From Dysidea avara (taxonomy: Eukaryota > Porifera > Demospongiae > Dictyoceratida > Dysideidae), in NCBI RefSeq assembly GCF_963678975.1, contig NC_089276.1, forward strand, positions 26,183,555 to 26,247,554: DNA of 64,000 nucleotides, given 5' to 3'. The notes under the pieces were generated by a model. The model did not search any database. It saw only the letters and a program-made list of their open reading frames with translations, and had not been told where the DNA came from. A program made the translations under genes and the position numbers. Of the stretch, positions 3,951-48,399 are shown in pieces (within the stretch, counting starts at the first letter, position 1; every line of letters starts with the position of its first letter).

Positions 3951-6900
3951 GTATATATACATAAATGTATGCATGCATGCATGTATGAACATATGTATGT
4001 ACATATGTATGTATGTACGTACGTACGTATGTATGTATGTATGTATGTATGTATGTATGTATGTATGTATGTATGTATGTATGTATGTATGTATGTATGT
4101 ATGCATGCATGCATGTATGTATGAATATATGTATGAATATATGTATGTATGTACGTACATACGTACGTATGTATGTATGTATGTATGTACGTACGTATGT
4201 ACGTATGTTTGTATGTATGCATGTGAGTCACATGGACATCACTACTTTCACGAAATGTCAAGTTGGATAACATTATTTTAACCCACCAACTGTGTGTTCT
4301 ATTAGAGTAGTGTATGTTGTATGCGAGTAATTGACAGAACTGTGGCATTTAGATGAAAGCTATTCAATTACACCTCACAGTGCTCAATGGTCATTTAGGA
4401 AATTTTGTCCTGGTAAATCACTTATATACTGTAGTTATGTATTGATCCATATCCAAGTTTCTACCAATGATAGTTTTTACCTTTACAATCACAAAGAAAG
4501 TCACAGTAATACAATTATGGAGAGAACATGCATTTTCTTCTGAACTGCATTCACTATCCAAGTTAAATATTTTAATACATCTCCACTAAGTAAACACCAC
4601 GGATACACTTGAATCAAGATGATGATGACTTAATGTGACGTTCTCTCCTTGCTGACACTCATCTACATTCTTGCTGGAACAAGAACCCTATACAACATTA
4701 AAACTCAATTATCAGTACTGTTTTAGGGTTTGCATCAAAAGTGACATGCGCCACCTAAAATTCCACCTTTAAAAATCATCCTAGAAACATCTTATGCCAC
4801 CATAATCACCTTTACAGAATAATATTTGTCCATAACATGAAATACAGCATTAAAAACAAGAAAACACTTACCAGTGACCAGATATTGAATTTTGTTTAAA
4901 TCTCCATAACTTGAAATTTTGTCTCACGGCTCACTCACTCACTCACTCACTCACTCACTCACTCACTCACTCACTCACTCACTCACTCACTCACTCACTG
5001 ACCACAGTCGCAAGCCTAGAGCCCAAACGAAGTAGCGCATGGTCACCATTTTATGCCACAACAACAAGCTCACCAGTGGGATATGCCTTTTGGGATTCCA
5101 ACGAGTGTACACCCTGTGCCCCTTGTCTTTCCTTTTACCTTCAATCAGGTTGGTTGTCTTCTTCATCAAGCATCAAAACCATACTGAAGCATTAATTTTC
5201 CGTATCAACACTTTTCTGTAGACACCACAAAATTATTTCAGAAAGCACTTATGCTGCTGAAAGAGCAGGGCGCTTATAATTTCAAGTGTTACATGTGAAA
5301 CATTAAGGCTGCTGAGTTGTCACTTCAACTTTTGCCAACACCTAGACTACAATCCAAAGTGATTTTTAGACGGACTGATACTCGACAACTTGTTCCTCTG
5401 AACACAGTGACTCAGCCACTCAGTGCTGTACAGCGGGATCAGCGAGTGATTCATGTGATTGGATAGTGCTCAAGTAGAAATTGTATTGCTTTATCCTGTT
5501 AGTCAAGACTAAGCTCCAGACAACTGCTACTACGATCAACGGTAAGCTATGGACCCTACTACGGGCCTGTGTGCTTCCAAATTTAGCACAGTTCGTAGTT
5601 TAATAAGCTGTAACTAGCTAGCTGTGCTACACCCAAAACTAAGCAAACTAGTATTTTTAAAAATTGTTAATGTAAAAATGAAGTAGGGATCTATGTAATA
5701 AAAAGTAGTGAAACAAGAGATAAATGATGGTATTACAGCATAGCTCGATGGGAAAGTTCCTACTTTGGCACATTAGCTATAATTTTGCTTAATGCCAAAG
5801 TAGGGGCTTTCCCACCTAGCTATGCTGTAATACCATCATTCATCTCTTGTTTCACTACTGTTTATTGCATAGATCCCTACTTCATTTTAAAATTATTTTT
5901 TAAAATACTGGTCTACTAATGAATTATATCCACTAATGTGTTGATTATAATAATACATAAAAACACAACACATACCTTTTTATAGTATACATATATAGTG
6001 TAAAAGACTGTATAAATCAAGCACCACAATAAGTTGTGCAGTTCCCACTTCTGTATGATACACACATCAAAATACAGATAGTGGCTAGTGACTACTGTCT
6101 TCTGACCCTGGGCAAGTCGTGCAAAAAATGCGCACAGTAAAGTATTTTTGGCTTGCTAATTATCAATTTTTGAAAATCATTGCTTAAACAAATATAACAA
6201 ACCAAGTTATGAGCAGTGATGCAAAAATGTGCTACTCACAGTCCCTTGCAGTACACCTGTGTCAAATATAACACCAGACAAACTAACTAACAACCAGTTG
6301 TGTGTTGTACAGCCAATGGGGCTAAAGCCTATACCACCCAAACATGTTTTGCTTTGGTCAAATTTCTGTTGGTGCACAACTTTATTTAATCAGGCTTTTG
6401 AAGGCTGGACCCTTTTTCACAGATCAGTTGTTTTGCAAAGTATGACAAAAAAGCTTAGTAAACTTACCATGAACATGATTGTGCCACAAAATTTTGAAAC
6501 AATGGTCAGACAAATGTACCAAACAATCAGCACTTCAACATTTGTAACAGTTAAACTATTCCTATTTGTGCATGTTTACAGCATTACCAATGGTACTATG
6601 GATACCATCACATGGATTGTTTTTCACCTAGTAGAGCGACATAGTCCAATAGTTGTGCACTTTTTGATACAATTATGAAGCTTTCCATGTAAGTTGTATA
6701 TACTCCTTGTGACATATATTTTTTGATATAGTGCCATTGCATATTTGACCTTTTGGTGACCTTTACAGCCATTTTTTGTATGAAAATTCATTGTTTTTAT
6801 CTGCCAGAGGGCATCATTTTGCACAGTTTCAAATTAAAGGTGCTAGCTACTAAAATGAACTACTTGATTTGAAGTCAATAGGTGATTGCATTCCAAAGTT

Positions 6901-24900: not shown

Positions 24901-26035
24901 AAGGAGCTATTTCCAGTTGGAAACCACTTGGAATGCAACTTGGTCTGACCTCGGATAAACTGAATGAAATATCAGCAGATTGTAGGGATAATGATTATGA
25001 AAGGCACATTGAAAGAGTTTTTGAATTGTGGAAACAGCAGTCACAAAAACGAACTTGGAAGGATTTAATAAGGGCAATAGAAGTAACAACTGTTAACCCA
25101 CAACTCTGCATGGATTTGTCAGTGAAGCACCTAGCAGGTATGTAATTTTGTGTATTATTTAAAACCAAGCTTGCAGCTAGCAACTGCTAATCAGCTTGTT
25201 TATTTGCATGCACTGTCTCTCTGCTGTTTAAATCTTATATATTTGTTTTACTACTAAAAATACAATTTGAATCCACAATTTGAACAGTCTCGTAATTTTA
25301 AGATGACTGTTAACCATTGTTTTAATTAATAGACCATTACTAACTATTCACCTTGCAAATGAAAAAATTGTCACTGCTAAAACAGGAGAACAAGTGAGTG
25401 GCAAATCAACAACTTACAAATTAAGCTCCTTGCAGAGTGTATGAAAACAGCTAGCACTCTGAGGTGCATGCATTGAGTATTTACTTATGCCTTGTTATGT
25501 ATTTGATTCTTCATGCACCCCCTTATTCCTGTACATGCTCATGTTTACAATAATAATTGCAGTATAAGTCCGTTAGCTGGCCAGTCAGTCAGCAAGTAGA
25601 AATTCATTGAAATTTAAATCATCAAAGAAACCCTTGGAAGTACATACTTTAGGTCATTTTACATTTGGTTTGATCTTGAGCAGTGCTAAGTCATTGTGAT
25701 TCTGCAAGTTTTATTGCAATCTTTGATAGATTATGCATTTTGTTGCTACAGATTTTGATGATAAGGTTTTGGATAAAGATTTATCTAATGAAGTTTTGAT
25801 ACCAATGGCAAAGTACTGGTTTGAACTTGGCCTGGCATTAGGTATTGATGAAACACAACTGGACAACATTCCGGTTGCTGATAGCAGTCAAGGTTTTCGT
25901 AAAATGCTACACACTTGGTGGCAGCAAAACTTTGCAGCTGACCGAACATGGAATACCATTGTATTCTCTCTTGATGCTGTGAACCTAAGTGTGTTTGCTA
26001 AGGAAGTATATGATTCACGGATTGGAGCAGAATGA
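3639..26035 (+). CDS. Ig-like, single-pass receptor with two death domains (5' end uncertain)
   Basis: Supported exons are 3639-3950 (Ig-like), 7411-7548 (transmembrane), 8879-8971, 9023-9082, 9136-9195, 9249-9308, 9358-9417 (20-aa repeats), 23753-23794, 24850-25137 (death domain 1) and 25752-26035 (death domain 2 and stop). Every internal junction is phase 1 with GT-AG borders, and the joined frame has no stop, which is strong internal support. The predicted product has an extracellular Ig-like domain, one membrane helix with a basic stop-transfer, a repeat-bearing tail and tandem C-terminal death domains. Death domains recruit adaptors through homotypic contact, so a signalling receptor is inferred. 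UNC5 receptors also pair Ig and death domains but carry TSP1 and ZU5 domains, and none are seen here. The 14-kb intron between 9417 and 23753 is full of transposons. The first exon and ligand are unknown. Confidence 0.7.
3964..4224. repeat. (GTAT)n microsatellite array
   Basis: A long GTAT/GTAC tetranucleotide array with interspersed GCAT units sits in the intron immediately after the Ig exon. Six overlapping spurious ORFs arise from it. The next stretch (4225-4830) shows no further feature. Confidence 0.95.
4830..5220. repeat. Interspersed repeat with (ACTC)n insert
   Basis: A segment beginning TTAAAAACAAGAAAACACT is followed by an ACTC run (4930-4999) and a unique-looking part near AACAACAAGCTCACCAGTG. 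A diverged copy without the ACTC run lies at 44938-45180, so this is a dispersed repeat. The region 5221-5667 shows no gene. Confidence 0.7.
5668..5892. repeat. Foldback MITE, family B copy 1
   Basis: Inverted arms begin AAAATGAAGTAGGGATC and contain the subterminal motif AGTGAAACAAG. The arms are about 100 bp and meet near 5780. Relatives are at 38292-39090, 39698-39755 (one end only) and 46109-46572. Confidence 0.85.
6636..7270. repeat. Foldback MITE, family A copy 2
   Basis: The arms share GTGCACTTTTTGATA, then ATAGTGCCAT, then TTTGACCTTT with the copy at 200-912, in the same order and inverted in the second half. It is more diverged than copy 1. It lies in the receptor intron before the transmembrane exon. 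The open frame at 6229-6678 overlaps it and is not credible as a gene. Confidence 0.75.
7411..7548 (+). CDS. Receptor exon: transmembrane segment
   Basis: A 138-nt phase 1-1 exon follows TTTATTCAG and ends at GTAAGA. A short acidic and Ser-rich stalk leads into about 22 hydrophobic residues (IVIWMVVIFAVILLWLLIMY). Next come a Cys pair and the basic stop-transfer RITRRCR. The order places the Ig domain outside the cell and everything downstream in the cytoplasm. Confidence 0.75.
7665..7812. repeat. Foldback MITE, family C copy 1
   Basis: The arms GTCATCTATACCTGCAGCTA and TAGCTGCAGGTGTAGATGAC are inverted around 7732. The inner sequence ATACTAGTGGACATTT recurs in the copies at 10376, 41397 and 43601. 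Confidence 0.75.
8030..8300. repeat. Interspersed repeat with (AGTC)n tract
   Basis: The order CTGAAGGCATCAG, then AGTC repeats (about 8119-8190), then a sequence ending near GGCATTTTTAGGCC recurs at 42660-42800, 43130-43270 and 44380-44560. It is a dispersed element whose ends are not defined here. Confidence 0.6.
8358..8806. repeat. MITE with CAGGGGCGGATCC-type ends, copy 1
   Basis: The left end CAGGGGACAGATCCAGG and right end CGATCTGCCATTG are inverted relatives, with an inner GGGGTGCATTTGCC motif near the right end. The same ends flank 19801-20148 and 28058-28630. Ends of this kind are typical of hAT-related non-autonomous elements; the class is inferred. Confidence 0.65.
8879..8971 (+). 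CDS. Receptor exon: juxtamembrane cytoplasmic segment
   Basis: A 93-nt phase 1-1 exon follows ATAATAAG and ends at GTATGA. Its last part reads PHEQQSHYDDYYK, with three Tyr and several acidic residues that could be phosphorylation sites. The text PHEQQSH resembles PNEQSGH in the following mini-exons, so those may derive from the end of this exon. The polypyrimidine tract is weak. Confidence 0.6.
8985..9440 (+). repeat. 113-bp tandem repeat, four copies
   Basis: Units start near 8991, 9104, 9217 and 9330 (TGTTAGAAATGTTTCATGTC). The period is exactly 113 bp, except for a 4-bp deletion in the last. Each unit contains one 60-nt exon-like block plus about 53 bp with intron-like borders. Copies differ at only a few positions, so the expansion is recent or homogenised. 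Confidence 0.92.
9023..9417 (+). CDS. Four tandem 60-nt mini-exons of the receptor tail
   Basis: Blocks 9023-9082, 9136-9195, 9249-9308 and 9358-9417 are each exactly 60 nt, preceded by CATAG and followed by GTATGR. They are phase 1-1, so any number can be included without breaking the frame. Each encodes 20 residues containing IGRPRPNEQSGHRGSD or a close variant (copy 3 has NEQNGRHGPD, copy 4 HCGFD). Introns between them are 49-53 bp. The repeats add a basic, Pro/Gly/Asn-rich linker between the membrane helix and the death domains. No known domain is recognised. That they are exons is inferred from borders and phase; they could also be an intronic satellite. Confidence 0.6.
10244..10303 (+). 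other. Possible diverged fifth mini-exon (relic)
   Basis: The sequence TATCACACATAG precedes this block exactly as in the mini-exons. The next 60 nt stay open in the same phase and keep RPN, Ser, His and Asp at matching codons. The donor position reads CATCTA instead of GTATGG, so splicing there is lost. It is either a decayed fifth copy or chance. Confidence 0.35.
10376..10618. repeat. Foldback MITE, family C copy 2
   Basis: The left end is AAATTAGGGATCATAGAAAG with AGTGAAACAAGGAGG, and the inner part is ATACTAGTGGACA. The right arm is inverted but diverged, ending near AAATCCTTATTTTCC. The nearby region 9441-10243 contains no gene, only two copies of the motif GACTGCTCTATTAGAG near 9890 and 10000. 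Confidence 0.7.
11335..12560 (-). pseudogene. Ty3/gypsy retrotransposon pol remnant (RT, RNase H, integrase)
   Basis: Reading the minus strand from high to low coordinates, several pieces appear in pol order. At about 12480-12560 is a pre-RT segment with MVGPPVYSHPSR. At about 12230-12430 is an RT start with WHPCEDYRELN. At 11846-12058 is the RNase H tail with IKGPDNNSVADALS. At 11335-11826 is the integrase, with an H2C2-type zinc region (LGHP) and a core keeping the three acidic positions (HIDIVGP, VTDRRQ, MIECFHH). The paired-Cys part of the zinc finger is deleted. Frameshifts and the loss of the RT centre show that it is inactive. Confidence 0.8.
12660..12985 (+). pseudogene. Gypsy-type aspartic protease fragment, opposite strand
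   Basis: On the plus strand, VDTGAEVS (retropepsin active site) is followed after a frame break by IPPSVSNHNHCKSTLTLQAV. The second protease signature IIGADFLRLY comes near 12885. In an intact element the protease is on the same strand as RT. Here it faces away from the pol part at 11335-12560, so the element has been inverted or rebuilt. The stretch 12986-13260 is open but unrecognised. Confidence 0.7.
13268..13690. repeat. Interspersed repeat, family D copy 1
   Basis: It begins TTATGACTGGTGAACCC, then continues through a CAGCTGTCAATTACYG block and a block near GGTATGCCAAAAGGCACC. The same order is found at 42085-42640 and partly at 43810-44320. Weakly similar open frames exist in each copy, but no protein family is recognised. 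From 13691 to 14290 nothing else is identified. Confidence 0.65.
14291..15190 (+). pseudogene. BEL/Pao retrotransposon, gag part
   Basis: The frame from 14291 (MENLRRWHSSHK) is followed, with stops and shifts, by LPKLNLPTFCSDPLSWQTSW at 14757-14963. FNYLRAQLQGEA comes next, then a segment up to the assembly gap. This arrangement is typical of the DUF1759/DUF1758 polyprotein of Pao-like elements. No long terminal repeat was recognised. The frame is broken at least three times. Confidence 0.75.
15191..15390. other. Assembly gap (200 N)
   Basis: Exactly 200 undetermined bases, a round figure used as a scaffold join, so the true distance is unknown. It falls inside the BEL/Pao gag. The sequence right of it is a different element, so colinearity across the join is not guaranteed. 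Confidence 0.98.
15391..16300. repeat. Unclassified transposon-derived sequence
   Basis: The first 150 bp match the T-run and GGTCTTYAACT motif found in the MITE at 19801-20148. The rest contains TTTATCTGGTAGGCGTGGC and a GAAGAAA-rich part. At 16185-16262 lies one arm of the hairpin element described at 16548. The open frames here are not credible genes. Confidence 0.5.
16548..16660. repeat. Hairpin element with GTTATACAATG ends
   Basis: Arms from GTTATACAATGGGCAAGAG to GTGCACATTGTATAAC form a hairpin of about 110 bp around AGGGCCGTTAGGCCT. The inner GCTCTGCCTGATATA pairs with TATACAGGCAGAGC. A related half copy is at 16185. Around it (16300-17300) lie AT runs and the self-complementary CACCTAATAGGTG at both 16670 and 17085, in a repeat-only stretch without genes. 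Confidence 0.75.
17821..19800 (+). pseudogene. BEL/Pao retrotransposon: zinc knuckles, protease and RT
   Basis: Zinc-knuckle pieces (CVYCKGTHTSNNC, then CFNCL and CKKCNNKHHTSIC in shifting frames) lead into an aspartic protease at 18135-18490 (NILFDEGAQHSFIS). RT follows at about 18970-19500 with TTDIEKAFLHIKLHEDDQ and the box NLYVDN, where the usual second Asp is replaced. Pao-type sequence continues to 19800. At least four frame breaks and stops mean it is inactive. Confidence 0.85.
19801..20148. repeat. MITE with CAGGGGCGGATCC-type ends, copy 2, inside BEL/Pao
   Basis: The left end is CAATGGCGGATCCAGGATG and the right end CTGGATCCGCCCCTG. It splits the Pao reading region between DPLG and LSPV, showing that it landed after the retroelement. 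Bases next to the ends (TTCCTGTC and CTGCTGTC) could be a diverged 8-bp target duplication. It contains C-rich and T-rich runs. Confidence 0.8.
20149..21250 (+). pseudogene. BEL/Pao retrotransposon: RNase H and integrase start
   Basis: The Pao reading resumes with SPVSVCAKLLMKQLW. RNase H features follow: IHGFADASLKAYGAVIY, KLELMAALVATRL and LWSDSQIVLHWI. The last is followed by a broken integrase leader up to about 21250. Stops interrupt every frame. No integrase catalytic core was found, so the element is 3' truncated here or diverged. From 21251 to 21678 there is no further gene. Confidence 0.8.
21679..22036. repeat. MITE with GGGGTGAAACGAAT ends
   Basis: The left end AGGGGTGAAACGAATATT and right end ATTCGTTTCAGCC are inverted. 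The interior is rich in GAATATT and CGAAT. The ends resemble those of hAT-like elements (GGGCTGAAACGA), as at 39911. No ORF. Confidence 0.75.
22163..22776. repeat. TIR element, family E copy 1
   Basis: The ends TATGTGACCCGGTCTTATCG and CGATAAGCCCGG...GGATCACATA are inverted. The body is colinear with 23842-24468 (for example AATCAAAATCAGCTA and the GCTTGCCTG block). Another end fragment is at 21547-21573. No transposase is encoded, so it is non-autonomous. Confidence 0.75.
23753..23794 (+). CDS. Receptor exon: short linker
   Basis: A 42-nt phase 1-1 microexon follows CTATTTCAG and ends at GTATGTG. It encodes GAPRALSIGERAKQ plus a split Arg codon. It connects the repeat region to the first death-domain exon in frame. 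The call rests on its good splice borders and on frame continuity. Confidence 0.5.
23842..24468. repeat. TIR element, family E copy 2
   Basis: A diverged copy of 22163-22776 in the same orientation, with ends TTTGTGACTGGGTCTGGG and GGCGATAAGACTAGTT...GGGTCAAA. It lies in the intron before the first death-domain exon. Its ORF at 24257-24442 has counterparts in copy 1 only as noise. Confidence 0.7.
24850..25137 (+). CDS. Receptor exon: death domain 1
   Basis: A 288-nt phase 1-1 exon. The core reads SSWKPLGMQLGLTSDKLNEI, then a helix with ERHIERVFELWKQQ and WKDLIRAIE. This is the standard death-domain layout, with the Trp-x2-Leu-x3-Leu-Gly-Leu pattern of helices 2-3 and the Trp-x2-Leu of helix 5. 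Such domains sit in the cytoplasm and bind other death-fold proteins. Confidence 0.85.
25752..26035 (+). CDS. Receptor exon: death domain 2 and C-terminus
   Basis: The exon starts after GCTACAG in phase 1 and ends at TGA (26033-26035). It encodes KYWFELGLALGIDETQLDNI, then FRKMLHTWWQQNF and WNTIVFSL, a second death-domain fold. It is more diverged than domain 1, but keeps the same helix landmarks. The protein ends about 15 residues after the domain. Confidence 0.8.
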
Positions 26036-30523: not shown

Positions 30524-32143
30524 CTAGTCAGCGTCTATTTCAAAGAATAGTTTATCATTGACGAGATATTGAACAAGTGGTGCTTCCTCTTGCTTCTTTA
30601 GACATTCAGACATAATGAAGTCGGTATAGCCCCATCCCGGATTACTACGGCCACCTGCCGGTTTGACAATACAATGTAGTTTGATGTCAGGGTTATTGCG
30701 ACTTAAATAGTATTCTTTTTTGTACATAAAATGACCTTCGTCATATAATTGATTCAACAACTTCACCTGTACTCTACCATCATAAGGCCATTCAAGCTTG
30801 TCATCATTCTCACCAGCTGTGATATTTACAAATACGGCAAGATATCTATCCTTCCTTGTTCCTTGACTGCTCGGGTTAATATTGTGGTACATTTTGTATC
30901 CACGATGGCTGTAGAAGCGTACAGTACGGAAACTAGTGCCTCCAGGTTTGGAGCTTTCTTCTAATTTGGCACTGTAATTTTGTAAGCTTACAATCACTGG
31001 CAGGGCACGATCAAGTTGTTGTGTGATAAATTCATGAAGAAGATACAATGAATTCATGAATGAAGATACAATAAATGAAGAAGATACAATAAATTCATGA
31101 ATGAAGAAGATACAATAAATTCATGAATGAAGATACAATCTTCAATTCTCAGCTTTGCAGCAATCTTTGTCATCCCATTAATAAAATGCTCTGTTTTATT
31201 CATTTCCTCAACACTCTTAGCAAACGTGTTTTGCATGTCATCAAGACCAATCAGTTTGTGCTGAACCTTCTCTAGCTCATTGAGTAGCATTGTCTGCACA
31301 CTCTTAAGTTTGTCTTCAAATTCTTCTTTTGCCTTTTGTAGGTCTTCCTTGTATCTTTCTTGCAACATGGACAACTGTTTACTTTTGTCTTCCAATTCTT
31401 CTTTGGTCTTTCGTAAATCTTCCTCATGTTTTTCTTGCAATAGAAACATCTGCTTACTCATTGCTAGTTGGTGTTGGCTTACATTAGATTTCAAGTGATC
31501 ATCTAGATTTCTTCGTTGCAGTTTTTCATTGCATCCCATAATGGGGCAAGGCACTAGTTGAAATTCACACTCCTTTAAGTGCTGTAGGAGAACTGACTGC
31601 TGAAGTGATTTCTTGCAACCATTATTTGGACAAGTGACTAGTAGTGTTGGACATGGATTGTGTTTATTGTTCATATCTAAAACAGTCATGCTATGTTTGC
31701 AAGTAGCACAAGTGACTAGTTGATACTGGCATTCCTTGATATGTAACTTTAGCTCTCTTCATTGTAGTTCCTGAGCACAGCCAGTGTTTGAACATTTTAT
31801 GGACACAAAATTGCAATTTCCTTCAATTTTTCCTATTGATAAGTGGTTTAGAAGATTACGATGCTCCCCTGACCAAGGACAACCCGGTTCCTTCTTGGTG
31901 CAGTAAACTTTAGTATCATTTACCCTACGGCTGAAACTTAAATCCCTAAAGCAAGTGAAATCCTCTGTTTGACAATAAGGACAACATGGCACAGCTACAA
32001 TAAATGTGTTGACCACAGCAATTGGTTTGGTGGGGATCATTGAGCAAACCATGACACAGAACACACTTCAACTGATCTTTATCCAGTGCATTCACCGGCT
32101 CAACATCACCCAATGCAATAGCAATGGGAGAATCGGTCTCTTT
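30524..32143 (-). pseudogene. Broken duplicate of the RING-TRAF-MATH terminal exon
   Basis: It is colinear over its whole length with 36580-38058, including the acceptor (TTTCATTTTAG) and the start KETDSP (EETDSP in the intact copy). Damage includes a deletion of about 17 nt inside the RING after CCGQHIY that shifts the frame. A TGA follows ELQ at 31759, where the intact copy has an Arg codon. A short AT-rich tandem insertion at 31028-31135 shifts the frame before the MATH domain. The MATH part (30524-31020) remains open and ends FFEIDAD, as in the intact copy. It could still be spliced but would not give the full protein. Confidence 0.85.
31028..31135. repeat. Tandem repeat inserted in the TRAF pseudo-exon
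   Basis: Four to five units of 17-27 bp on the theme AATGAAGAAGATACAATAAA lie between the coiled coil and MATH parts. The unit resembles the local exon text GAAGATACAATGAATTCATG, so it probably grew from there by slippage. The intact copy lacks it. Confidence 0.85.
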
Positions 32144-35587: not shown

Positions 35588-36579
35588 ATAAATAAACTAA
35601 TGTCCATTTGGTTTCACATGGGGTACTTTGAGATAAATAACAACATGAAATTGATAAGGAGACCTGACTGCCTGGCAGACACCTAGCATTCGAGTGTAAA
35701 TTTAATCGAATGGCTGCAGGATTGGGGCTGCCTAGGTCCAGTCATGTTTCTCCTTTCTGTAACTTTTCAAACACACACTCAATCACCTTTCAACCACTAA
35801 AAGTGATTTTCCATATGATCATTATTTTGTATACGATGCACTCAGGGTTCTCAGCGTAGGACACCTGGTCCTACAGCCTGCTTAAAGATGTTAAGATGCA
35901 GAAAGGAGAAAAAATCCATGACTGGACCTATAGGCAGCCATCCCATTTGAGCTCGAACACTTACAGGCCAGGAGTCTGCCGGATGTTTCTCCTTATCAGT
36001 TTCATGTATTTGTATCCATAGAGAGTGACTTATTATCTCATGCGAACTACCCCACAAAATTTTATACCTACATGGTTGGCAAAAAAAAGCCATTATTGCA
36101 TGTAAATCGACACTTGGTGCTACCTGCAAAAAGAAATGGGACACAAAGAAGGACAAAGGTAAGTCCATGATACATATATTGTAGATACTGAGGTTGGTGA
36201 AATGGTTCATTTAGAACCCAATAACACCAAATAGCAAAGAATTCAAGCCCATAGCATTAGCCATTGTTGAGCTATGTTTGTTGGGGCAAGCCTGAGTGAG
36301 CCCCCAGTATTATCAGTTGAGCATGGTACATACAGTGTGAACACAAAAATTTCCTAAAGCTCCACACTTGGCAGATGAAATTATAGTGATCTGACAGAAT
36401 GTTAAAATATTTCATCAATAATACTCTTGATATTACATCATTATGAATGTGCATGCATGTACTTGTTACACCATACATGCCGACATATTAAAGATTGACA
36501 AACAGCATCGCAATAGTTACAAAAAAACCAAAAGGTAAGCAGTATATTGCAGTTTTAATTAAACAAGATTCTATAGTAG

Positions 36580-38058
36580 TTAGTCAGCATCTATTTCAAA
36601 GAATAGTTTATCATTGACAAGATACTGAATGTGTGGTGTTCCCTCCTGCTTTTTCAGATGTTCAGACATAATGAAATCGGTATAGCCCCACCCTGGATTA
36701 CTACGATTGCTCATTGGTTTGGCTATGCAGTGTAGTTTGACATCAGGATTACTACGACTCAAGATATATTCTTTTTTGTAAACGTAATGGCCTTGGTCAT
36801 ACAGTTGATTCAACAACCTTACTTGCACTTTTCCATCATAGGGCCATTCAAGCTTGTCATCATTCTCACCAGCTGTGATATTTACGAACACAGCAAGATA
36901 TCTATCCTTCCTTGTTCCTTGACTGCTTGGATTAATATTGAGGTACATTTTGTATCCACGGCGACTGTAGAAGCGTACAGTACGGAAACTAGTGCCCCCT
37001 GGTTTAGAGCTTTCTTCTAATTTGGCACTGTAGTTTTGTAAGCTTACAATCACCGGCAGGGTACAATCAAGTTGTGTGATAAATTCTGCATTGGAGTGCA
37101 GAAACAATCTCCAATTCTCAGCTCTAAGCTTATAAGCAATCTTTGTCATTCCGTTAATAAAATGTTCTGTCTTCTTCATTTCATCTACATTATTGGTCAA
37201 CTGGCCTTGCATAGCTTCAATGCCATCTAACTTTTGTTGTACCTTTTCTAATTCACTAGTCAGCTTTGTGTGTACATTCTTCAGCTTGCCTTCAAATTCT
37301 TCTTTAGCTTTTTGTAAGTCTTCCTTGTGCCTTTCTTGTAATAGGAACATCTGCTTACTCATTGCTAGTTGGTGTTGGCTTACATTAGATTTCAAGTGAT
37401 CATCTAGATTTCTTTGTTGCAATTTTTCATTGCATCCCATAATGGGGCAAGGCACTAGTTGAAATTTACACTCCTTTAAGTGCTGAGGGAGAACTGACTG
37501 CTGAAGTGATTTCTTGCAACCATTATTTGGACAAGAGACTAGTAGTGTTGGACATGGATTGTGTTTATTGTTCATGTCTAAAACAGTCATTTTACTTTTG
37601 CAGATATCACAAGTGACTAGTTGATACTGGCATTCCTTGATATGTAACTTTAGCTTTCTTCGCTGTAGTTCTTGAGTACAACCAGCATTAGGGCATTTTA
37701 CAGACACAAAATCACAACTTCCTTCAACCTTGCCTGGTGATAAGTGGTGTAGAAGATTACGATTCTCCCCTGACCAAGGACAACCTAGTTCCTTGTTGGC
37801 ACAGTAAACTTTACTATCATCTACCCTACGACCCATGTTTATATCCCTAAAGCAGCTAAACTTCTCACTCTTACAGAAAGGACAATGTGGCTGAGCAACC
37901 CGACGGCTACATCCAAAACAAATGTGCTGACCACAGCATTTGGTTTGGTGGGGATTATTTAGCAAACCATGACACAGAATGCATTTAAACTGATCTTTCT
38001 CCTGCGGATTCACCAGATCAACTTCAGTCAATGCAATAATGGGAGAATCAGTCTCTTC
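36580..38058 (-). CDS. RING, TRAF zinc-finger, coiled-coil, MATH terminal exon
   Basis: A 1479-nt exon is open from the acceptor (TTTTTAG at 38059-38065) to the TAA, giving 492 residues. The order is as follows. RING at about 26-64: C-x2-C, then KCCGQHICFGC and CPFC. Two or three TRAF-type zinc fingers at about 85-240: CPWSG, ECQYQLVTC, ECKFQLVPCPIMGC. Coiled coil at about 245-320: QERHKEDLQKAKEEFEGKLK. MATH/TRAF-C at about 340-490: SFRTVRFYSRRGYKMYL, GWGYTDFIM. TRAF proteins are E3 ligases and adaptors whose MATH domain binds receptors or partners. There is no Met before the RING, so an upstream exon must supply the start. Reading phase points to the CARD/DED exon at 47425-48399. Confidence 0.88.
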   Translation of the reverse strand, partial: EETDSPIIALTEVDLVNPQEKDQFKCILCHGLLNNPHQTKCCGQHICFGCSRRVAQPHCPFCKSEKFSCFRDINMGRRVDDSKVYCANKELGCPWSGENRNLLHHLSPGKVEGSCDFVSVKCPNAGCTQELQRRKLKLHIKECQYQLVTCDICKSKMTVLDMNNKHNPCPTLLVSCPNNGCKKSLQQSVLPQHLKECKFQLVPCPIMGCNEKLQQRNLDDHLKSNVSQHQLAMSKQMFLLQERHKEDLQKAKEEFEGKLKNVHTKLTSELEKVQQKLDGIEAMQGQLTNNVDEMKKTEHFINGMTKIAYKLRAENWRLFLHSNAEFITQLDCTLPVIVSLQNYSAKLEESSKPGGTSFRTVRFYSRRGYKMYLNINPSSQGTRKDRYLAVFVNITAGENDDKLEWPYDGKVQVRLLNQLYDQGHYVYKKEYILSRSNPDVKLHCIAKPMSNRSNPGWGYTDFIMSEHLKKQEGTPHIQYLVNDKLFFEIDAD

Positions 38059-38291
38059 CTAAAAATGAAAAGTATGGTAAGTATGCATCACTCAATGTAA
38101 AAAGCACAATAATTAACCAAAAAAATACACTAGTGCATTCATTATCACAATGCAAATGCAGTTATTGTGTTATAAGAAAGGACTCAGCTGTTCAGTGTGC
38201 TATATGAAACTTGGCAACAAGAAATGAGCCTAATGTGGGTGAGGCTACCCATACTAAGGCCACAGGGCAAGTTACTAGTGTATAATAATTT

Positions 38292-39090
38292 AGAAATAAA
38301 GTAGGAATCCAAGCAATAAAACTTGTGGAATAATAGATGAATGATGGTATTACAACTTAGAAAATTCTATTACGTAATATTTCCAAGGTTACTAAATCCA
38401 ATAGAAACCTGTGGTGGGGTTACTAAATAGTTAGTAACCTGTGGTCTCGCCGGTGGTTGTTTACTACATTCATCGGCAAAGCCAAAAACAAAATGTCCTT
38501 ACTGTTAGCTCAAGACAGGCATCATTAGCATTCAGATAGTCTAGGCATTCAATACACCAATGTCTGACGTGGTGTGACACTGACACAATAAACTTGAAGG
38601 ATAAGTCTCAAAGTTAGCACACACGGTTTGCTTCTTAATAGCTTACTTTCTGGACTACACAAGCATCATTCTAGCTCGGCATAGTAACAATGCTAGCACG
38701 TCCAGTTTGCCACTTTCTTTCACTCTTTTGACCTAAGAAATTTTCTAAATCACTTAGAACGGGTTGACATCAGTTTCTACACTATTTAGAGCCTGATGTG
38801 AGCTTGGCTACCCACAATTAATTACCTTGGCTGTGGCCTCAGTAATTAAGAATTAAGTTTGTGGGTAACCTCACCCACATCATCCTCAGGTCTCTAAATA
38901 AATAGTGTAGAAACCTTGTCGACCTGTTCTAACTGATACACAGCCCTGTGGGAAAATCCCTACATTGGCAAGTCATATCAATTTTTCTGTTCAACGCCAA
39001 AGTAGGGATTATCCCATAGAGTTATGTTGTAATTATTTACAGTATTTCTTGCTTCACTAATGTTTCATATACTACTGTTTTTTGTTGTAA
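38292..39090. repeat. Family B MITE with nested inverted-repeat element
   Basis: The outer ends are AAAGTAGGAATCCAAGCAAT with GATGAATGATGGTATTACA, and near 39010-39090 the inverted TTATGTTGTAATTATTTACAG with CTTGCTTCACTA. Inside, 38760-38940 forms a second inverted repeat (TTTCTACACTATTTAGAG and CTCTAAATAAATAGTGTAGA). An isolated family B end is at 39698-39755. These lie in the proposed 9.4-kb intron. Confidence 0.65.
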
Positions 39091-39910
39091 CTATAGCTAT
39101 TATATACATGGTGACTGTTCTATTAGAAAATTCAACATGGCTGAGGTTGACTGCTTTACTAGAGCATCTCTAGTGGGCCTGGAATATTTTCAAGGAGCAT
39201 GGTCTTTCCATGACTTGCTACTAGTAATAGGCATGGTCGATGTGATTGATCACAATAAGTACAGCTAGAGGCATGTCACATGGTGCCTGATCACAATTTG
39301 GTACTACTAGATTGTAAAGCAGCACGGTCAATCGTAACGTGCAGCTACAAGTACAGTGTCTGTTAATACCTCTTATAGCAGTTTGAATGTTTTAAACAAT
39401 TTTGTGATATGCATTAAGGTGATGACCAGCATGATAGAATATAAAAGGAAAGTGCAGAGGGCAGACACTCATTGGAACCCCACATGCCACTGGTATATTG
39501 TGGCATAATATAGTGAGCATATGATGCGATATTTGGCCTCTAACTTTGTGACTGTGGTTAGGCAATCAGACACATCTATAGCTCACTCAAGATCAGCGGC
39601 AAGATCAAGGTAATCTAAGAAAGCAGTAATCTCAACACAACCGTATTCAATATTCTAATATCTTGTATCTATAACAAAAAAATGTAATCAATTATTAAAA
39701 ATGAAGTAGGGATCCAAGCAATAAAAAACAGTGAAACAAGACACAGGTGCCACTGTGAAGGTTTTGCAACCTCTCAGGGGATAGCATCGTAAGTTTGCAC
39801 TTAGGACTGACCATCACAGCCTTGGTGGGCTTTGCCACAATGTCACACGCACCGCTGGAATTCTATGTAGCTGTACCATGACCAAATGTTGTCAATAAAT
39901 TACTAGTAGT

Positions 39911-40710
39911 CTAGGGCTGAAACGATCATGGTTTTTTAGTATTCGAGTACTCACTAGAGTTAACGATTGAGTACTCACAAGTACTAGCTACTTGTAGTCA
40001 TACCCGGTAATTTTTTTGAGTGTACTGTCAAACTGCCACTACAACACAGATTTTATCCTGCCAAAATATTAAAATGCACTGACACCCAGGTTTAAGCTTT
40101 CAGTACTCACAATATAATCATGCCAAAAGTAATGTAACCATGTCATAAATAATGTAACACACTGTTTCTAGTCAAGTACAACAGTCTTTAAGCTATGAAA
40201 TGAAACTTCACGCATCCCACAAGTCAAAGGTAACACTGGATAACATAGTTTAAAATACATTTTGCACATTCATAGCTGAAAAGTACAAGTAAGTTGGTGT
40301 TCAAACCTCAGTGTTTTGGCTTGACGTAAAGCTTGTGGCCACAAACCATAAACAAACAGCTTAATTAAATATTAGTGCCTTTGTAAGGCTACTCTCCGTT
40401 TATCCAGTCACAATGTCCAGACAACAATAAAATTAACCAATATGCAATATTGACCGGAAATTGGCTGATTGTCAATGATGTTTCGAGCCCTGTACCCATT
40501 TGACATGTATTGCAACACACTGTATTAAAGTACTGACGTTAGTGCTCCTGACAAAAAAAAATTATGCCAACCAAACTCTACAGCCTTCATTGTGTCACTC
40601 CCTGATGACAAATAGCTGGATCATGTGATCTTAACAAGTACTCGAGTACCAATTTTGCTATCCATGTACCAAAATCCTTAACGAGTACTTGTCGAGTATT
40701 ACATGACACA
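39911..40710. repeat. hAT-like non-autonomous element (right end unclear)
   Basis: The left end is CTAGGGCTGAAACGATCATG. Internal GAGTACTCACTAG and GTACTCGAGTACC motifs recur inverted toward 40690 (ACGAGTACTTGTCGAGTA). The GGGCTGAAACGA end is common in hAT-type elements. The right terminus was not pinned down. Confidence 0.5.
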
Positions 40711-40755
40711 CCTTTGCCATTGCCTCCTTTTGGAAGGTCGCATAACCCAAACCAG

Positions 40756-40760
40756 CGTGT

Positions 40761-40820
<60 letters not shown>

Positions 40821-40867
40821 CATGCATGCGTGTATGTAGGTCAAACTAGTGTGTTATGTGTGTGTGT

Positions 40868-40948
<81 letters not shown>
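40756..40948. repeat. Two (TG)n microsatellites
   Basis: TG runs at 40756-40815 and 40862-40946 are separated by GTGCGTGCATGCATGCG and a short unique bit. The poly Cys-Val frames are artefacts. The sequence from 40949 to 41396 has no gene. Confidence 0.95.
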
Positions 40949-40952
<4 letters not shown>

Positions 40953-41396
40953 GCATGCGTGCACGCGCAAATACACTGTATGTGGGTCAGCACCTACACA
41001 ATGTGACCAACAGGCAATGGGTTTTAGCCGGCTAAGCTGACGACAATCACAAGGTCAAGTCCAGGATCCCACCTGATGGTATCACTTGGTACACACCAAC
41101 CTGGTGCCCCTGTGGAGGTTTTGCAAGCCTCCCAGGGGGAAACTGAAGTCTGCACTTAGGACAATGGATGTTATCATAATGCCAGAGCACATGCTGCTGC
41201 TAGAGTTCAATGGATCCTCTGGTTTCCATGTAGCTGCACTATGACCATTTCCAGTGAACCTGGTGGCATGATTGTTCACTTTTGCTGCTGTCTGTCCCTT
41301 CCAATTAGGAAGGCTGTGTACCCAAAGGGGTAGCAGAGAAGGACGGAAGTGTGCATGTATATGTGCATGTATGCATATGTAGTGCGTGTGTGCTTT

Positions 41397-41592
41397 AATT
41401 AGGGATCATAGAAATAAAAGTAGTGAAACAAGGGAGGTCGCCTACTACTGAAGATATAGTATTGGACATTAAATCTCTACTTCAGTCTACACCCATGACT
41501 GAATTAGAGATTAAATGTCCACTAGTATATCTTCAGGTATAGGCAACCTCCCTTGTTTCACTACTTATGATTCCTAATCAAACTTAATTTTC
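41397..41592. repeat. Foldback MITE, family C copy 3
   Basis: The left arm is TTAGGGATCATAGAAATAAA with AGTGAAACAAGGGAGG, and the right arm CCTCCCTTGTTTCACTACTT is inverted. The centre is TACACCCATGACTGAATTAG. It is nearly identical to 43601-43785. Confidence 0.88.
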
Positions 41593-41835
41593 ATATACTT
41601 GTTTGTTTACTTTGGTGTAACATTGTTATGACTGGTGAACCCACGTATACCTACAGTGTATTAGAGGCGTCAAGCTTATTGTTTTCACCTGAATGTGCAC
41701 CCCAAATACTAATTACTGAAATAGCAAAGTGGCTGTTTTCCCAAAACTATGGAACCCTCTCCTATAGATCTGCGTGCTAAAATAGGTAGTCTGTGACTAT
41801 ACACACAAGTACACAAAAAAATTGGAATTTTCAAC

Positions 41836-42050
41836 TAGAGTAGGGACCATAGCACATCGATAAAAAGTACTGAAACGAGTTGGAATAGTGCACGATATTA
41901 AATCACAGTAAAACAATAAGAAGTTACTGTGCATTTTGGATATAACACTTCTTATTGTTTTACTGTGATATAATATCGTGCACTACTCCAGCTTGTTTCA
42001 GTACTTTTTATCAATGTGCTATGGTCCCTACCCTACTTGAAATTTCAATT
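41836..42050. repeat. Foldback MITE, family C-like with different core
   Basis: The ends AGTAGGGACCATAGCACATC and GATGTGCTATGGTCC-type are inverted, with AGTACTGAAACGAG near the end. The core is AATCACAGTAAAACAATAAG and its inverted partner. The outer motif GGGACCATAG...TGAAAC is shared with families B and C, while the core is unrelated. Confidence 0.8.
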
Positions 42051-42084
42051 TTTTTTGTATACTTGTTTGTCAACTTTTTTTGTA

Positions 42085-43270
42085 CATAATTATTATGACT
42101 GGTGAACCCACACATACCGCATCTGACATGGTGCCGTGCCCCCCAGTTATATCAATTATCATCGAAAAGTGAAGTATCCATTACGTTTCATTGTCAGCTA
42201 TGCTCAACCCGTTACACAGCATTACGAATTAACAACTGTTCGATTAGCACCTCTGCAATCTACGCATACCGAAAGAAAGAAATGGCGCTGCGCATCCCAA
42301 TTATATCAATTATCATTTGAAAACTGAAGTATCCATTATGCTGTCATTGTTGGCTATGTTCAACCCGTTACACAGCAGTATGATTCAAGAACTGCTCAAA
42401 AAGCACCTATGCAATCAAAATAGCCACTATGAAAAATATGGACGATTTCCGTTTCGAAGGAAGCCATCACGTGCTACTGTCCAATTGACACTTTTCGCTG
42501 TCAGCAAAGATGAATGGGACACAAAGGAGGACACTGGTAAGTCCATGAAGAATGCATTGTTTGTACTGCGGTATGCCAAAAGGCACCTCTCGGGCCAAAG
42601 CAACATTGAACAGTGAAAAAATCAAGCCCGTAGCCTTAGCTGTTATCAAGTTACACTTGTCTGAAGGCATCAGTCAGTCAGTCAATAGAAAATTCTGTCA
42701 AATAATTTTAAAAAAAATTCCCCGTAGCAACTTGTTGAAAGTGTTTCGGTCGATCTGAAAGCTTCTTTGGGTTTTATCTAACCAATACTGCCTCATCGTT
42801 GTCTGGGCTGGTTTTAGGGTGATGTTATTTCGTGGGCCACGTCTACTCCTTTGTGGTCCCTACTATACAACTGAAGAACACTATGAGAAGGACCTCTGCA
42901 ATCAATCAGTCACAAAAGGAAAACTTGGATGATTCGTAGGGAAGCCATCAAACAGCGCTACCATGAATCGATACCTTGGGCTGTCAGCAAAGATTAATGG
43001 GACACAGATAAGTCCATGAAGCATGCATTGTATGCACTGCAGTATGCCAAAAGGCACCAGTCGGTTTGAGGCGACATCAAACAGTCAAAATATCAAGTCC
43101 ATAGCTTTAGCCAATATCGAGTTACGCTTGTCTGAAGGCGTCAGTCAGTCAGTCAGTAGAAAATTCCACCAAACCAATACTGCCATGATGCCATGAAGGT
43201 ATCATGAAGCTGGTTTTAGGTTGATATTTTTGGTCAAAAATACCCAAACCTTCATGATCCCTAATCTATC
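42085..43270. repeat. Interspersed repeat, family D copies 2 and 3
   Basis: The order TTATGACTGGTGAACCCAC, then a TATCAATTATC block repeated twice (42150 and 42300), then CTGCGGTATGCCAAAAGGC, then the GTCAGTCAGTCAGT tail at 42672 is partly repeated at 42850-43270. Members are at 13268-13690 and 43810-44580. Codon-like similarity between copies exists but frames are short, and no family is recognised. Confidence 0.65.
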
Positions 43271-43600
43271 GTACTGTATGATGAAGGAAAGTACTAGTGG
43301 GAATTTTCATGACTTGATGACAAAATACTCAAAGGATGTTCATATATATATATAAACAAACAAGTTGCTTAACTTGTAAGGCGAATTCAACGAAATGTAT
43401 GCTAGCCTAATAAAGCACCTGTACATCTCATGTGACCGTGTTGAGTCCTTTACACTGCACACAAATTATATTACCAGGGGTTTTCATGACAGACTAAAGT
43501 ATGACATTTCCTGAAATTCAAATGTCATGAATATGTGTTATTCCTTGTCTCAATGAAATATGAACAATTATAAGGAAAAATTACGAATTTTAAGTTCGAT

Positions 43601-43785
43601 TAGGGATCATAAAAAAAAGAAAGGGAAACAAGGGAGGTTGCCTACACCTACAGATATACTAGTGGACATTTAATCCCTGATTTAGTCTATACCCATGACT
43701 GAATTAGAGATTAAATGTCCATTAGTATATCTGCAGGTGTAGGCAACCTCCCTTGTTCCCTACTTTAATTGAACTTAAAATTCCT
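43601..43785. repeat. Foldback MITE, family C copy 4
   Basis: The arms run from TTAGGGATCATAAAAAA with GAAACAAGGGAGG to CCTCCCTTGTTCCCTACTT inverted, with the centre TCTATACCCATGACTGAATT. It lies between the family D blocks. Confidence 0.85.
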
Positions 43786-43809
43786 AATTTTTCTTATACT
43801 TGTTTGTTT

Positions 43810-45180
43810 ACTTTTTTGTACATACCGCATCAAAAGAAATTAGAGCATCAGATGCAATGATTTCATCTAAATGTGCACCCCAGCTATCAATTACTGATTT
43901 AAAAGTGAAATGGCCATTCCACTTCACTTTCAGCTATGTTCAGCCTGGTACACAACGCTACCAACGAAGAACAACAGGGGAAGCACCTCTGCAATCAATC
44001 CAGTCACCACGAAAAGTATGAACAATCCGCATGCCCCAACTATCATTTACTGACTTGTAAGTGGCCATCATGCTCCGCTATCGGCTATATTCAGCCCGTT
44101 TCACAGCATTACAAATGAAGAACAGTAGAAGTGCCTCTGCAGTCACCATGAAAAATATGGACAATTCCCGTAGGGAAGCCATCGCATTAGCTACTGAGGA
44201 TTGACACCTTGAGCTGTCAGCAAAAATAAATGGCACACAAAGGAGGACAAAGGTAACTTAGGTAAGTCCACGTGTGCATTGCACATACTGCGGTATGCCA
44301 AAAGGCATGTCTCTGGACGACGTGATGTCAAACAGTGAAAGAATCAAGCCTGTAGCCTTAGCCGTTATTGAGTTAAGCTTGTCTGAAGGCATTTGTCAGT
44401 CAGTAGAAAATTCCACTAAGAAAAATTATTTCCCTTAATTTCATAGTAACTTTTTGGGAGCGTTTCAGGTCGTACTGAAGGCATTTTTGGACTTGGTTAT
44501 ACCTAACCAATACAGCCAAGGTGCCATGAAGGTATTGTGAGGATGGTTTTAGGATGATAGAAAAGCCCAAACCTTCACGATCCCTAATACACAGTAATAT
44601 ACAGTACTACCATACTGTATGATGAAATTGTATAACCTACTAAACAAAAAACATAGTTTGCATTTTTTCCAAAACTTTTGTTGTGATTTCTTTGTTGCCT
44701 AGAGGGAAAACCAATGGCTGGTTGAAGTCTGTCGACAGTTCTAAGCAATAGAAAGCAGGAAAGTAAAGTAAGTACAGTGGCTCTATTGAAAATAAACAAC
44801 AGGTGGTTAAAAGACTGTACAGCAGTACTAAGTGACGGGTGCCACTAAAAATGCTGTGTCTAACAACCATCATAGAATACCATGTCATGAAAATCACATT
44901 TACAAAATAGTCTTACTCTATTTGACATCAAATAGAGTGTTAAAAACAAGAAAACACTCACAGGTGGCTGGGTGTAGAATTTTTTTTTTAAATCGTTGAA
45001 TTCTGGTTTGCCAACCTGCCTTGACCACACTCACAAAGCTAGAGGCCGAAAGAAGCAGTGCATGACTTCCATTTTACACACAACAACAAGCTCACAAGTG
45101 GGGTATGCCTTTAGCGGTTCCAATATTTGTCTCCCTCAAGGAAGGTGTTGATATGGAAAATTAATGCCTTGGTATATTTT
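43810..45180. repeat. Family D copy 4 and dispersed repeat copy
   Basis: 43810-44580 repeats the family D order (CAGCTATCAATTACTGA, GGTATGCCAAAAGGCA, GTCAGTAGAAAATTCC). 44938-45180 matches the repeat at 4830-5220 (TTAAAAACAAGAAAACACT, AACAACAAGCTCAC). From 45181 to 46108 the sequence has several TTCGAAG motifs, inverted between 45310 and 45790, and no gene. Confidence 0.6.
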
Positions 45181-46108
45181 CTCGGCATTAAGAAGACAAC
45201 CATTTACGTAATATGGCAAAGCATAGAAGGCAGGAGCATATTAGATGCCAGAAACCTTCCTTGAAGAAGCATATTTAAATACCAGAACTACCATATAGCA
45301 GGTTATATTCGAAGCAGAAAATTTCGTACAAGAAGTAAAATCTGAATTTCGAAGAATTTTAATTTTGAAGAGTACATATTTCGAAGTCCGGGTAATGGAA
45401 ATTTGTATCACAAATTAGAGATACATGAATGTTTGCCAAAAACTGACTGAAGGAATAATCCCATCCCTTTGCACTGGAGAGAATACTGAGGGAGTCTTGA
45501 GTGGAATAAATTCACTGGCTTGATTGCGCTTGATTGTAGCTAGCTAGCTATCCGCAACCATAGATTCTAGAGTAGATGGCATCCCATTCTAGATCACCTG
45601 TTTTCTGGTTATTGGCACAGTAATGATACAGTTTACCCATTATCATCAGTAATACTGAGCTAAAGTTCAAGCGAATCACTGAAAGCTTTCACTTGTGGGA
45701 ATCGATTTTCGAAGAACAACCAGACGTGGGAATTTATTTTTGAATAAAAGGGCCTCTTTGAAATATCCAAAAATAAAAACCCTTCGAAAATTACCAGCTA
45801 TACAGTATTTGAGACATCTATCAGACTGTACACTATAGTATCATTCCTGGTAGTTAGGTAGCAGCTAAAGCTGCACTTGTAAAATAATTGCAATGGGTCA
45901 CATGCCCTTAAATGATCAGAACACGCAACCACACATCTAATAATCAGTGCTGAGGCCACGCCCTTCAATGATCTAGCTCTGTAGAAAACAAGGCATTGTA
46001 CCACGCCTTAGCTTAATTTAAAGCATTGCTGAGTAGCGAGATTGAGATATTCTAACAGAGCAGTCACAGCCACACATGTATTTCATAGCTATGCAAAAAC
46101 AGTTATCT

Positions 46109-46572
46109 AAAAATGAAGTAGGGTTCCAGTAATAAAACAATCTGAGATGATGGTAGCTATATATGAGAGAAACTCCTTACTTGATTAATAAATCCCTTTA
46201 AGACCTGAATTGTTCCAGTGAAAAAACATGTTTTTTTTTGTGGTGTTTGTGGATATAGCTTTGTATCTCCCAAATCGCCTATCCCTGTTCCAATTGCCCT
46301 TTATAACATCGATATACATACCTTGGCCCAGGTCTTTGACGATTAACCAGCCCATCAGCCGACCAGAGCAATCCTTGCACTCCCAGACTCTTCTTTTTTT
46401 CACAAAGCGACGCGTATTTTCACTCTTTCTTCTCCGCGCTCATATCTTGGAAACGGTTAGTTCCAGCAACAAAAACTAACCGCCATCTTGTTGAGTATGA
46501 CATGGTGAATCCGTTGAGATTTTCCTTTATAGCTACATGTACCATCATCTCGTTTCACTACTTCATTTTTAA
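46109..46572. repeat. Family B MITE, long copy
   Basis: The left end is AAAATGAAGTAGGGTTCCAG with GATGATGGTAGCTA, and the right end ACCATCATCTCGTTTCACTA with CTTCATTTTT inverted. The interior, about 350 bp, is unrelated to other copies. The stretch 46573-47424 has no supported exon, although the CARD/DED gene must be spliced across it. Confidence 0.7.
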
Positions 46573-47424
46573 ATTACAGTAATAATAATTTATTTCACTG
46601 TACTAGATTAATCAATTGTAAGCTACAAGTGAAGCAGCCTATGGAGTTGGGATTTGTCTCCATGCATTCTCCATGAACTCAAGAATAATTCATAAAGGTA
46701 TAGTTTTGGTCTACATATACTCATGCTTGGGAGTAAGAATGCTATTCAAACTCAGAAACAGCAACAACGTTACATTATACCACAACGTAAGCACATGTAA
46801 CTCATGTCAGCTTCTTTGTGTATAGAAATAACACAATGATATTCTTACTCTCCATGAACAGGCAATACAATAGTTATACAGGGTATGAGTTATTATTGTT
46901 TTATTGTTCATTGAAGTGAATAAACTGCACATAAATCATCTGTAGCACCCATTTTTTATCCAATGCACCAAACAGTGGATCCGAACAGCTCTGTTCTAAA
47001 GTTGACAAAAATCAGTTCAGCAGATTTGGGTGAAGCCATTGATTATATACACCAATTACTCCAATAAAAAATATTTACAAAATACTGTTACAGTAATAGA
47101 GAACAGTCACTACTACATAAAATTATACTACTGTTAGCATTCGAATTACTACACAGATTAGTAAAGATACACCACTGTATCGCAAAGAATTACATAAATT
47201 AGTCAGGTTTTTGCTCAGCAGGTCACAATTAATTTTTATTTCCACAATTAAAACGAATGTGCAAATTCATTTAGGTGACATGTGATGGAAACATAAGTTT
47301 TTGTGCAGTGTTGCATGGTATTACCAATCCATTCTGTGCCCTACTACCAATGGTCAACACTTTAGCACTTCCATTACCAAACGTAAATACAAAATAAGGT
47401 ATACAATACACACTGTACACTTAC

Positions 47425-48399
47425 CTCAGCTGGTAAAAAGTCATCATGTTGTTGTTGTGAGACCTGTTTCATTTCTTTCAGGTTTACTATCCCCTCAACA
47501 CGAAATTTAGTAGGGATTGCTTTAAACTGCTTCAGTAGCTTTGTACTATTTTCTTTCGATGTTTGCCATATCAGATTACGTGTATCAGCCTCACACCCTT
47601 GGAAGGTTATGTCTGTGTATTTCAGCAGCTGTGAGCTCTGACGCATGGTGTTCTTAATTTCTCGCACCCTACTAATGGATATCTCTTGTATTGGCTGTTG
47701 CGAAACCTCGCTTGACAGGATTGTATACCCACTAGGCGGCTCCATTGTTAGTGGAGATGGTAGCATCCGGCAGTGTCTAATATAGCTCTCAACGGTGTGT
47801 GCAATTTCGTGACATCTCAAGGTAGTAGCAATTGCAATCAGTATTTCGCAATCATTATTATTAAGATGCCTGCTCCTTTCCAACACTTTAATGAGAGTCG
47901 TGTAGTCAGTGATGCAGTCAATTGCTGGTACAGACATTGATGTAATTCGCTGCAAACAAAATTTGATCTGGTCAATTGCAATATTTCTAGCTTTTAGTTG
48001 TTCTAGCACTCGTGATAACATTCCATTGTAATCAATACTAGCTTGGTCGAATTTCCTATCATCAGGAGAATCTTGTGTAATTTCGTCAGCTAGTAACATC
48101 AGGATAGTATCGTTCCCGGTGTCCGGGGCTTCATTCTGGCACTGTTGGAGGGCTTCAGCGAATTCTACAAATGCGTCGGGTCCTTTACGCCGAGCTATCG
48201 CCACAACTTGCTCGATTTTATCACAAAGCCGAGTTTCCTCTCGCAGAACTCTGGCTAGTTGAGATTGTGTCACCAACTTTCTCCTAACGAGAAATTTCCC
48301 CAGCAACTCCAAATTCAAATACAGTTTAAAATCTATCATAAACTTATCGAACAGTGCATCGTGAAACGTTCGCTTCGGCGGCTCATCTCTACTCGCCAT
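47425..48399 (-). CDS. First exon with CARD and DED-like domains
   Basis: The ATG at 48399 opens a 975-nt exon (325 codons). The reading ends FLPAE at a perfect donor (GAG|GTAAGT at 47424). The ORF continuing past the donor is read-through. Residues about 30-90 form a CARD, with ELLGKFLVRRKLVTQSQLARV and VVAIARRKGPDAFVEFAEAL. Residues about 125-215 have a DED-like pattern, with MLSRVLEQLKARNIAIDQIKF, LIKVLERSRHLNNND and HTVESYIRHC. The remaining 100 residues have no recognised fold. CARD and DED modules build cell-death and inflammatory complexes. The exon ends in phase 0. The next minus-strand exon I can support is the RING-TRAF-MATH exon at 38058, which also begins in phase 0. Confidence 0.82.

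Follow-up and report, generated by a model that had tools for sequence, protein, structure and literature searches.

In the available part of Kaur et al. (2021, eLife, PMC8195603), 357 TRADD-N proteins of the NCOA6 clade are reported from the sponge Amphimedon, and most of their architectures consist of one to three Death-like domains followed by TRADD-N and a variable C-terminus, for which MATH is one of the options. The same portion of that article describes DEDD2-clade TRADD-N proteins fused to TRIM ubiquitin ligases, and gives the vertebrate case in which the TRADD-N of TRADD docks non-covalently on the MATH domain of TRAF2 (structure 1F3V). Here we analysed a 64,000-nucleotide stretch of the sponge Dysidea avara (contig NC_089276.1, positions 26,183,555 to 26,247,554 of the forward strand), which we call the window and whose own numbering is used below. 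Two exons on its minus strand probably form a single gene, a reading to which we give a probability of about 0.8. Once spliced, this gene would encode a protein of 817 residues with the order CARD, DED, TRADD-N-like domain, RING, TRAF-type zinc fingers (zf-TRAF), coiled coil and MATH.

The upstream exon (exon 1, 47425-48399, minus strand) opens with an ATG at 48399 in the context caaaaATGG and runs for 325 codons, without a stop, to a phase-0 donor (GAG|GTAAGT, with GTAAGT at 47419-47424); it sits inside a stop-to-stop open reading frame (ORF) spanning 48447-47374. The downstream exon (exon 2, 36580-38058, also minus strand) begins in phase 0 at the acceptor TTTTAG|GAAGAG and comprises 492 codons (38058-36583) followed by a stop at 36582-36580; an ATTAAA at 36554-36559 on the same strand is a possible polyadenylation signal. 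Donor and acceptor thus agree in strand and phase, and 325 + 492 codons give 817 residues. An earlier sequence-only reading of this DNA had proposed these two exons, their phases and the length of the joined product, and all of this was borne out when we read the sequence again. It had also pointed out that no methionine precedes the RING. Indeed, the first Met of exon 2 is residue 75, past the RING, so that a start at its own first Met would remove that domain; exon 2 alone is therefore not a complete TRAF, and we rejected it as such. Exon 2, but not exon 1, has a broken tandem copy at 30527-32143 (minus strand): the frame of this copy is interrupted in several places, its RING part carries a deletion and a short repeat has been inserted, and no CARD/DED exon stands ahead of it. 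The copy's high similarity to exon 2 begins at TTTTAG| and is ragged upstream, which supports the 5' edge that we give to exon 2. The copy also shows that exon 2 can be duplicated without exon 1.

The best support for a single gene comes from comparison with homologues of both halves. A protein database search with exon 1 (E <= 10) returned ten homologues of 45-80% identity, the weakest at E 7.2e-84. With exon 2 (E <= 1e-20) eleven proteins were found, one of them the window's own (P0014) and another a distant TRAF (P0023); the remaining nine are 48-84% identical to the window exon. Four of the ten and four of the nine come from contigs of exactly equal size with the same source label (exon-1 homologue first: P0009/P0017, 2,400,373; P0011/P0022, 54,608; P0006/P0020, 47,026; P0010/P0018, 6,586). 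The exon-2 members of these pairs are 48-55% identical to the window exon, and for P0010/P0018 both halves fit within 6.6 kb. Pairs equal in size and source appear to represent the same contig, with the exons linked in these relatives and a chance agreement of four being very unlikely, although equal contig size informs on linkage and not on order, strand or splicing. The explanation that the exons are neighbours by chance was rejected on these four shared contig sizes. The residue after the last one of exon 1 is valine (GTN) in 10/10 homologues, and the protein comparison shows dissimilar reading beyond it, as expected of a donor position conserved at phase 0. Furthermore, the lack of an in-frame Met before the RING sets exon 2 apart from the TRAF-like exons that we sampled in the same genome, all 24 of which have one (23 ahead of the aligned region, one within it). 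This sample covers 22 regions, taken as top matches and long open frames from at least 137 exon matches of the TRAF protein, and rows starting within the first 30 residues were kept.

The interval between the exons (38059-47424, minus strand) would be a 9.4-kb intron, with CA repeats and inverted repeats and no supported exon. For a codon-usage scan of the window, the model was built from 38 ORFs of 180 codons or more, many of them TRAF-like, that lie in 22 other regions of this genome. Exon 2 scored highest (37.1), followed by part of the tandem copy (25.3) and exon 1 (14.5); a hexamer model that had learned from TRAF matches only, since superseded, had put a segment of exon 1 ninth in the window at 13.6. 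Inside the interval the best scores were 6.6 (a CA repeat, plus strand) and 4.3 (minus strand), while 16 control stretches of equal length (9.4 kb) had maxima of 4.4 to 12.1. No NNG|GTRAGT donor occurs on the minus strand of the interval, and donors matching 6/7 of the consensus gave a single candidate start exon of three codons (40720-40712), compared with two on the control strand. On these two scans, further well-supported coding exons within 38059-47424 were rejected, and the sequence-only reading's claim that nothing convincing lies between the two exons holds.

To characterize the predicted protein we compared each part with known families. The CARD (48091-48345, residues 19-103) and the DED (47746-48042, residues 120-218) of the window protein matched Pfam at E 0.016 and 0.014, both short of the curated cut-offs. 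Matches to both families were present in 11/11 family members at E <= 10, the best being 9.9e-5 (CARD) and 2.3e-6 (DED). In fold searches the CARD part corresponded to a six-helix CARD-type death fold and the DED part to a six-helix DED-type death fold. CARD, DED, RING (at the profile level), zinc fingers and MATH all stood from its domain list, but it had overlooked a third domain in exon 1. With the exon-1 model, Foldseek gave no CARD or DED among the best 50 matches listed. Searches of viral contigs with exon 1 and with exon 2 found no relative, nor did a profile search of genome contigs with the exon-1 alignment.

In its own genome (a 550.8-Mb assembly of 108 contigs, the window lying on contig C5), whose CARD, DED, Death and TRAF genes are those of an animal, the exon-1 module has one full-length match, and 16 of the 17 rows at E <= 10 are partial, the best at 1e-5. 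A hidden Markov model of exon 1 run on 30 loci, 22 of them TRAF regions of 9.9 kb, matched one ORF in two overlapping loci (E 0.03 and 0.05); as these regions extend at most ~9 kb upstream, less than the exon spacing seen here, the single-copy point rests on the genome-wide search. Separately, several ORFs with long low-complexity tails at loci L034, L036 and L039 (contig C7, 26.09-26.26 Mb) are matched by the exon-1 family model in its CARD part, and the L039 ORF scanned with Pfam gave CARD at E 1.1e-11.

The third domain (47443-47736, minus strand, residues 222-319) is predicted to fold as beta-alpha-beta-beta-alpha-beta, an arrangement like that of RRM and ACT domains, which we call TRADD-N-like; the models are of moderate to low confidence and the fold matches generic. 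In the beta2-beta3 turn of TRADD-N domains stands a motif made of a tiny residue and then Ser or, in some cases, Cys (PMC8195603, available part). A candidate for this motif is G268-C269 (47593-47598), at the end of beta2 entering that turn: G268 is conserved in 11/11 rows and C269 in 10/11 (Tyr in P0010), a two-residue motif that is weak alone. No match to PF13820 or PF09034 was found at E <= 10 in the 11 exon-1 family members. When hhalign aligned this domain to human TRADD-N, the score was 10.1, compared with a mean of 10.3 for 200 shuffles, 95% of which lay at or below 15.4, and so gave no support. There was also no TRADD chain among the matches listed in fold searches of the exon-1 and third-domain models, which excludes nothing.

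Exon 2 has the features of the TRAF family at the sequence and profile level, namely a C-terminal MATH and an N-terminal RING, with a displaced His, followed by TRAF-type zinc fingers. The RING (37873-37983) spans C26-C62 of the exon. The zinc fingers (37372-37803, residues 86-229) match Pfam zf-TRAF at E 1.3e-14 with a conserved Cys/His pattern. A charged, heptad-like stretch recognised by eye (37159-37347, residues ~238-300) is a probable coiled coil, and the MATH (TRAF-C) domain (36589-37047) matches Pfam MATH_2 at E 7.5e-22 as well as the MATH structures of TRAF2, TRAF4 and TRAF6.

How firmly can these exons be read as one gene? Linkage, the donor position kept in all ten homologues, the missing Met and the empty interval argue for the single gene that the sequence-only reading had proposed, but several further observations weigh against a single gene or against the architecture that it would encode, together with the limit on contig size given above. 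When residues 1-330 of the 817-residue model were searched against 3735 candidates of 449-1430 residues, no spliced protein emerged at E <= 1. The exon-1 module accompanies none of the other TRAF-like loci of the genome, its only full-length match being here. The predicted structure of exon 1 is of moderate confidence (AlphaFold2, mean predicted local distance difference test score 62), and no match at E <= 0.001 was returned by Foldseek for this model or the other model searched. MATH is, moreover, not a universal partner of TRADD-N according to the available part of PMC8195603. The homologues that remain unpaired lie, for exon 1, on a long contig (P0008, 2,247,977) and five short ones of 1,427 to 9,650, and, for exon 2, on a long contig (P0016, 963,486) and four short ones of 2,629 to 10,983. 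The long contigs of P0008 and P0016 have one half only among the matches listed; the second of them lowered our confidence in a single gene from 0.83 to 0.80. Finally, the four distant homologues P0016-P0019 start with a Met that aligns with the first codon of exon 2 or stands one codon ahead of it, which may be a true start codon or simply the first codon picked by the gene caller.

These last points would fit two adjoining genes kept together by co-regulation, with exon 1 spliced to a small undetected 3' exon and the TRAF gene having a short 5' exon of its own whose end falls within or close to its ATG. P0016-P0019 do open with M[TA][ED] where the homologous exon starts, which is what a stand-alone TRAF would show, and the interval holds the weak three-codon candidate. 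However, gene callers start at a start codon by design, which biases the Met observation, and the first residue is Glu in exon 2 of the window and in P0013, and Lys in the tandem copy. P0015 and P0020 were called from further in, suggesting that there is no start codon at that position in them, and P0020 shares its contig with an exon-1 homologue; in addition, no other start or terminal exon in the interval has coding support. We consider two genes quite improbable. We give still less credence to the idea that the fusion is one of two isoforms, the other being a short CARD-DED-alpha/beta protein made by intron retention at the exon-1 donor. Reading in frame past the donor reaches a stop after 16 codons, at the ORF end at 47374, and an AATAAA follows at 47240, but AATAAA is frequent in AT-rich DNA and the reading after the donor is dissimilar in the homologues; in any case such a short form would add to the fusion and not supplant it. 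A different doubt concerns activity rather than gene structure, as the fused protein could be an adaptor without ubiquitin-ligase activity. Its RING reads CCGQHIC, with Gln at the usual fourth zinc ligand and the His shifted one residue later, and no Pfam RING was detected in the window protein, P0013, P0016 or P0020. Yet the displaced His is present in 8/8 rows covering it, the RING Cys/His ligands are kept in all 7 or 8 rows that cover them, and several further TRAF-like exons in this genome show the same CC-x-x-H spacing. A profile of exon 2 built from ten sequences also matches 7l3l_A, a structure of the RING and finger of TRAF5 (E 1.9e-13), and the RINGs of BRCA1, RBBP6, RING2 and TRAF6, of which TRAF6 and BRCA1 are active ubiquitin ligases. 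A purely adaptor role seems to us unlikely.

If the two exons are indeed one gene, the protein might work as follows. The CARD-DED pair would be recruited into death-fold assemblies, or nucleate them, and assembly would cluster the attached TRAF body, which would trimerise through coiled coil and MATH. RINGs brought together in this way could build ubiquitin chains on the assembly (a putative ligase activity), and the chains could recruit downstream kinases for signalling of the NF-kB/JNK type. With death-fold, TRADD-N-like and TRAF parts in one chain, recruitment would need no separate adaptor; the TRADD-N-like part may also bind MATH within or between chains, acting as a brake or a cross-link. 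A more ambitious proposal, which we regard as tentative and on balance doubtful, is that this is a covalent TRADD-TRAF with a true TRADD-N and a MATH on one chain, kept in distant relatives, while the clade with a Met at exon 2 makes both a stand-alone TRAF and the fusion. Were it true, the TRADD-N/MATH contact within or between identical chains would be either an autoinhibitory latch or a bridge through which death-fold filaments become ubiquitin-ligase arrays, and the clade with a Met-starting exon 2 would preserve the step from two genes to one. A natural fusion of partners that are separate elsewhere suggests that the partners act together. The fusion predicted here would unite death-fold assembly with TRAF ubiquitin signalling in a single molecule, allow the age of the TRADD-TRAF connection to be tested, and offer a compact single-copy protein for asking if death-fold polymerisation alone is enough to switch on a TRAF ligase.

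Two other ORFs of the window deserve mention. One at 24669-25145 (plus strand), ~5.4 kb beyond the broken TRAF copy and on the opposite strand, contains a Death domain (Pfam E 7.1e-7) and is possibly another neighbouring death-fold gene; the other, at 11335-11862 (minus strand), resembles a retroelement integrase as judged by eye. Elsewhere in the genome, contig C4 carries large TRAF-like sets (for example at loci L010, L012, L014-L016, L021 and L023), which hold many of the TRAF-like exon matches. At L020 a TRAF-like exon (~7270-9312, plus strand) has a long N-terminal extension straight after a good acceptor (TTTATTTAG), which makes it a possible further TRAF whose coding sequence begins in an earlier exon.

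Set beside known systems, the two helical domains share their fold with the DEDs of FADD, caspase-8 and PEA-15 and the CARDs of CARD8, MAVS and NLRP1; to our knowledge none of these proteins is fused to a TRAF body. The TRAF-like single-exon genes of the same genome (for example on contigs C3, C4, C7, C10 and C12) resemble exon 2 in that a single exon mostly holds RING, zf-TRAF and MATH, at ~24-37% identity over the aligned part, and differ from it in the Met before the RING and in having no second full-length exon-1 module. A search of titles and abstract openings, outside subscription journals and supplementary tables, found no fusion of CARD, DED and a TRADD-N-like domain to a TRAF body among the papers listed, and the available part of PMC6321704 contains nothing on TRAF fusions. 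As in the vertebrate TRADD-TRAF2 pair, at least as the source consulted describes it, a side with a death-fold domain and TRADD-N (here TRADD-N-like) meets a TRAF side with MATH; there, however, the sides are two proteins and the death fold is a Death domain, whereas here one predicted chain would carry CARD and DED. The Amphimedon proteins share with this locus the order of Death-like unit, RRM-like domain and variable C-terminus, which in Dysidea is spread over two exons of a predicted single transcript and has a TRADD-N-like domain in the middle place. They differ in that no resemblance in sequence to PF13820 or TRADD-N was detected for the third domain of this locus, and in that the module is single-copy rather than part of a large expansion. 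This exact domain order was not known to the sequence-only reading. MATH is already listed as a C-terminal partner in the available part of PMC8195603, but the complete RING-zfTRAF-coiled coil-MATH body is not named there. As far as that source goes, the combination of Death-like domain, TRADD-N and MATH is thus of a kind already known in a sponge, and a complete RING-zfTRAF-MATH body behind CARD, DED and a TRADD-N-like domain would be a new variation on it.

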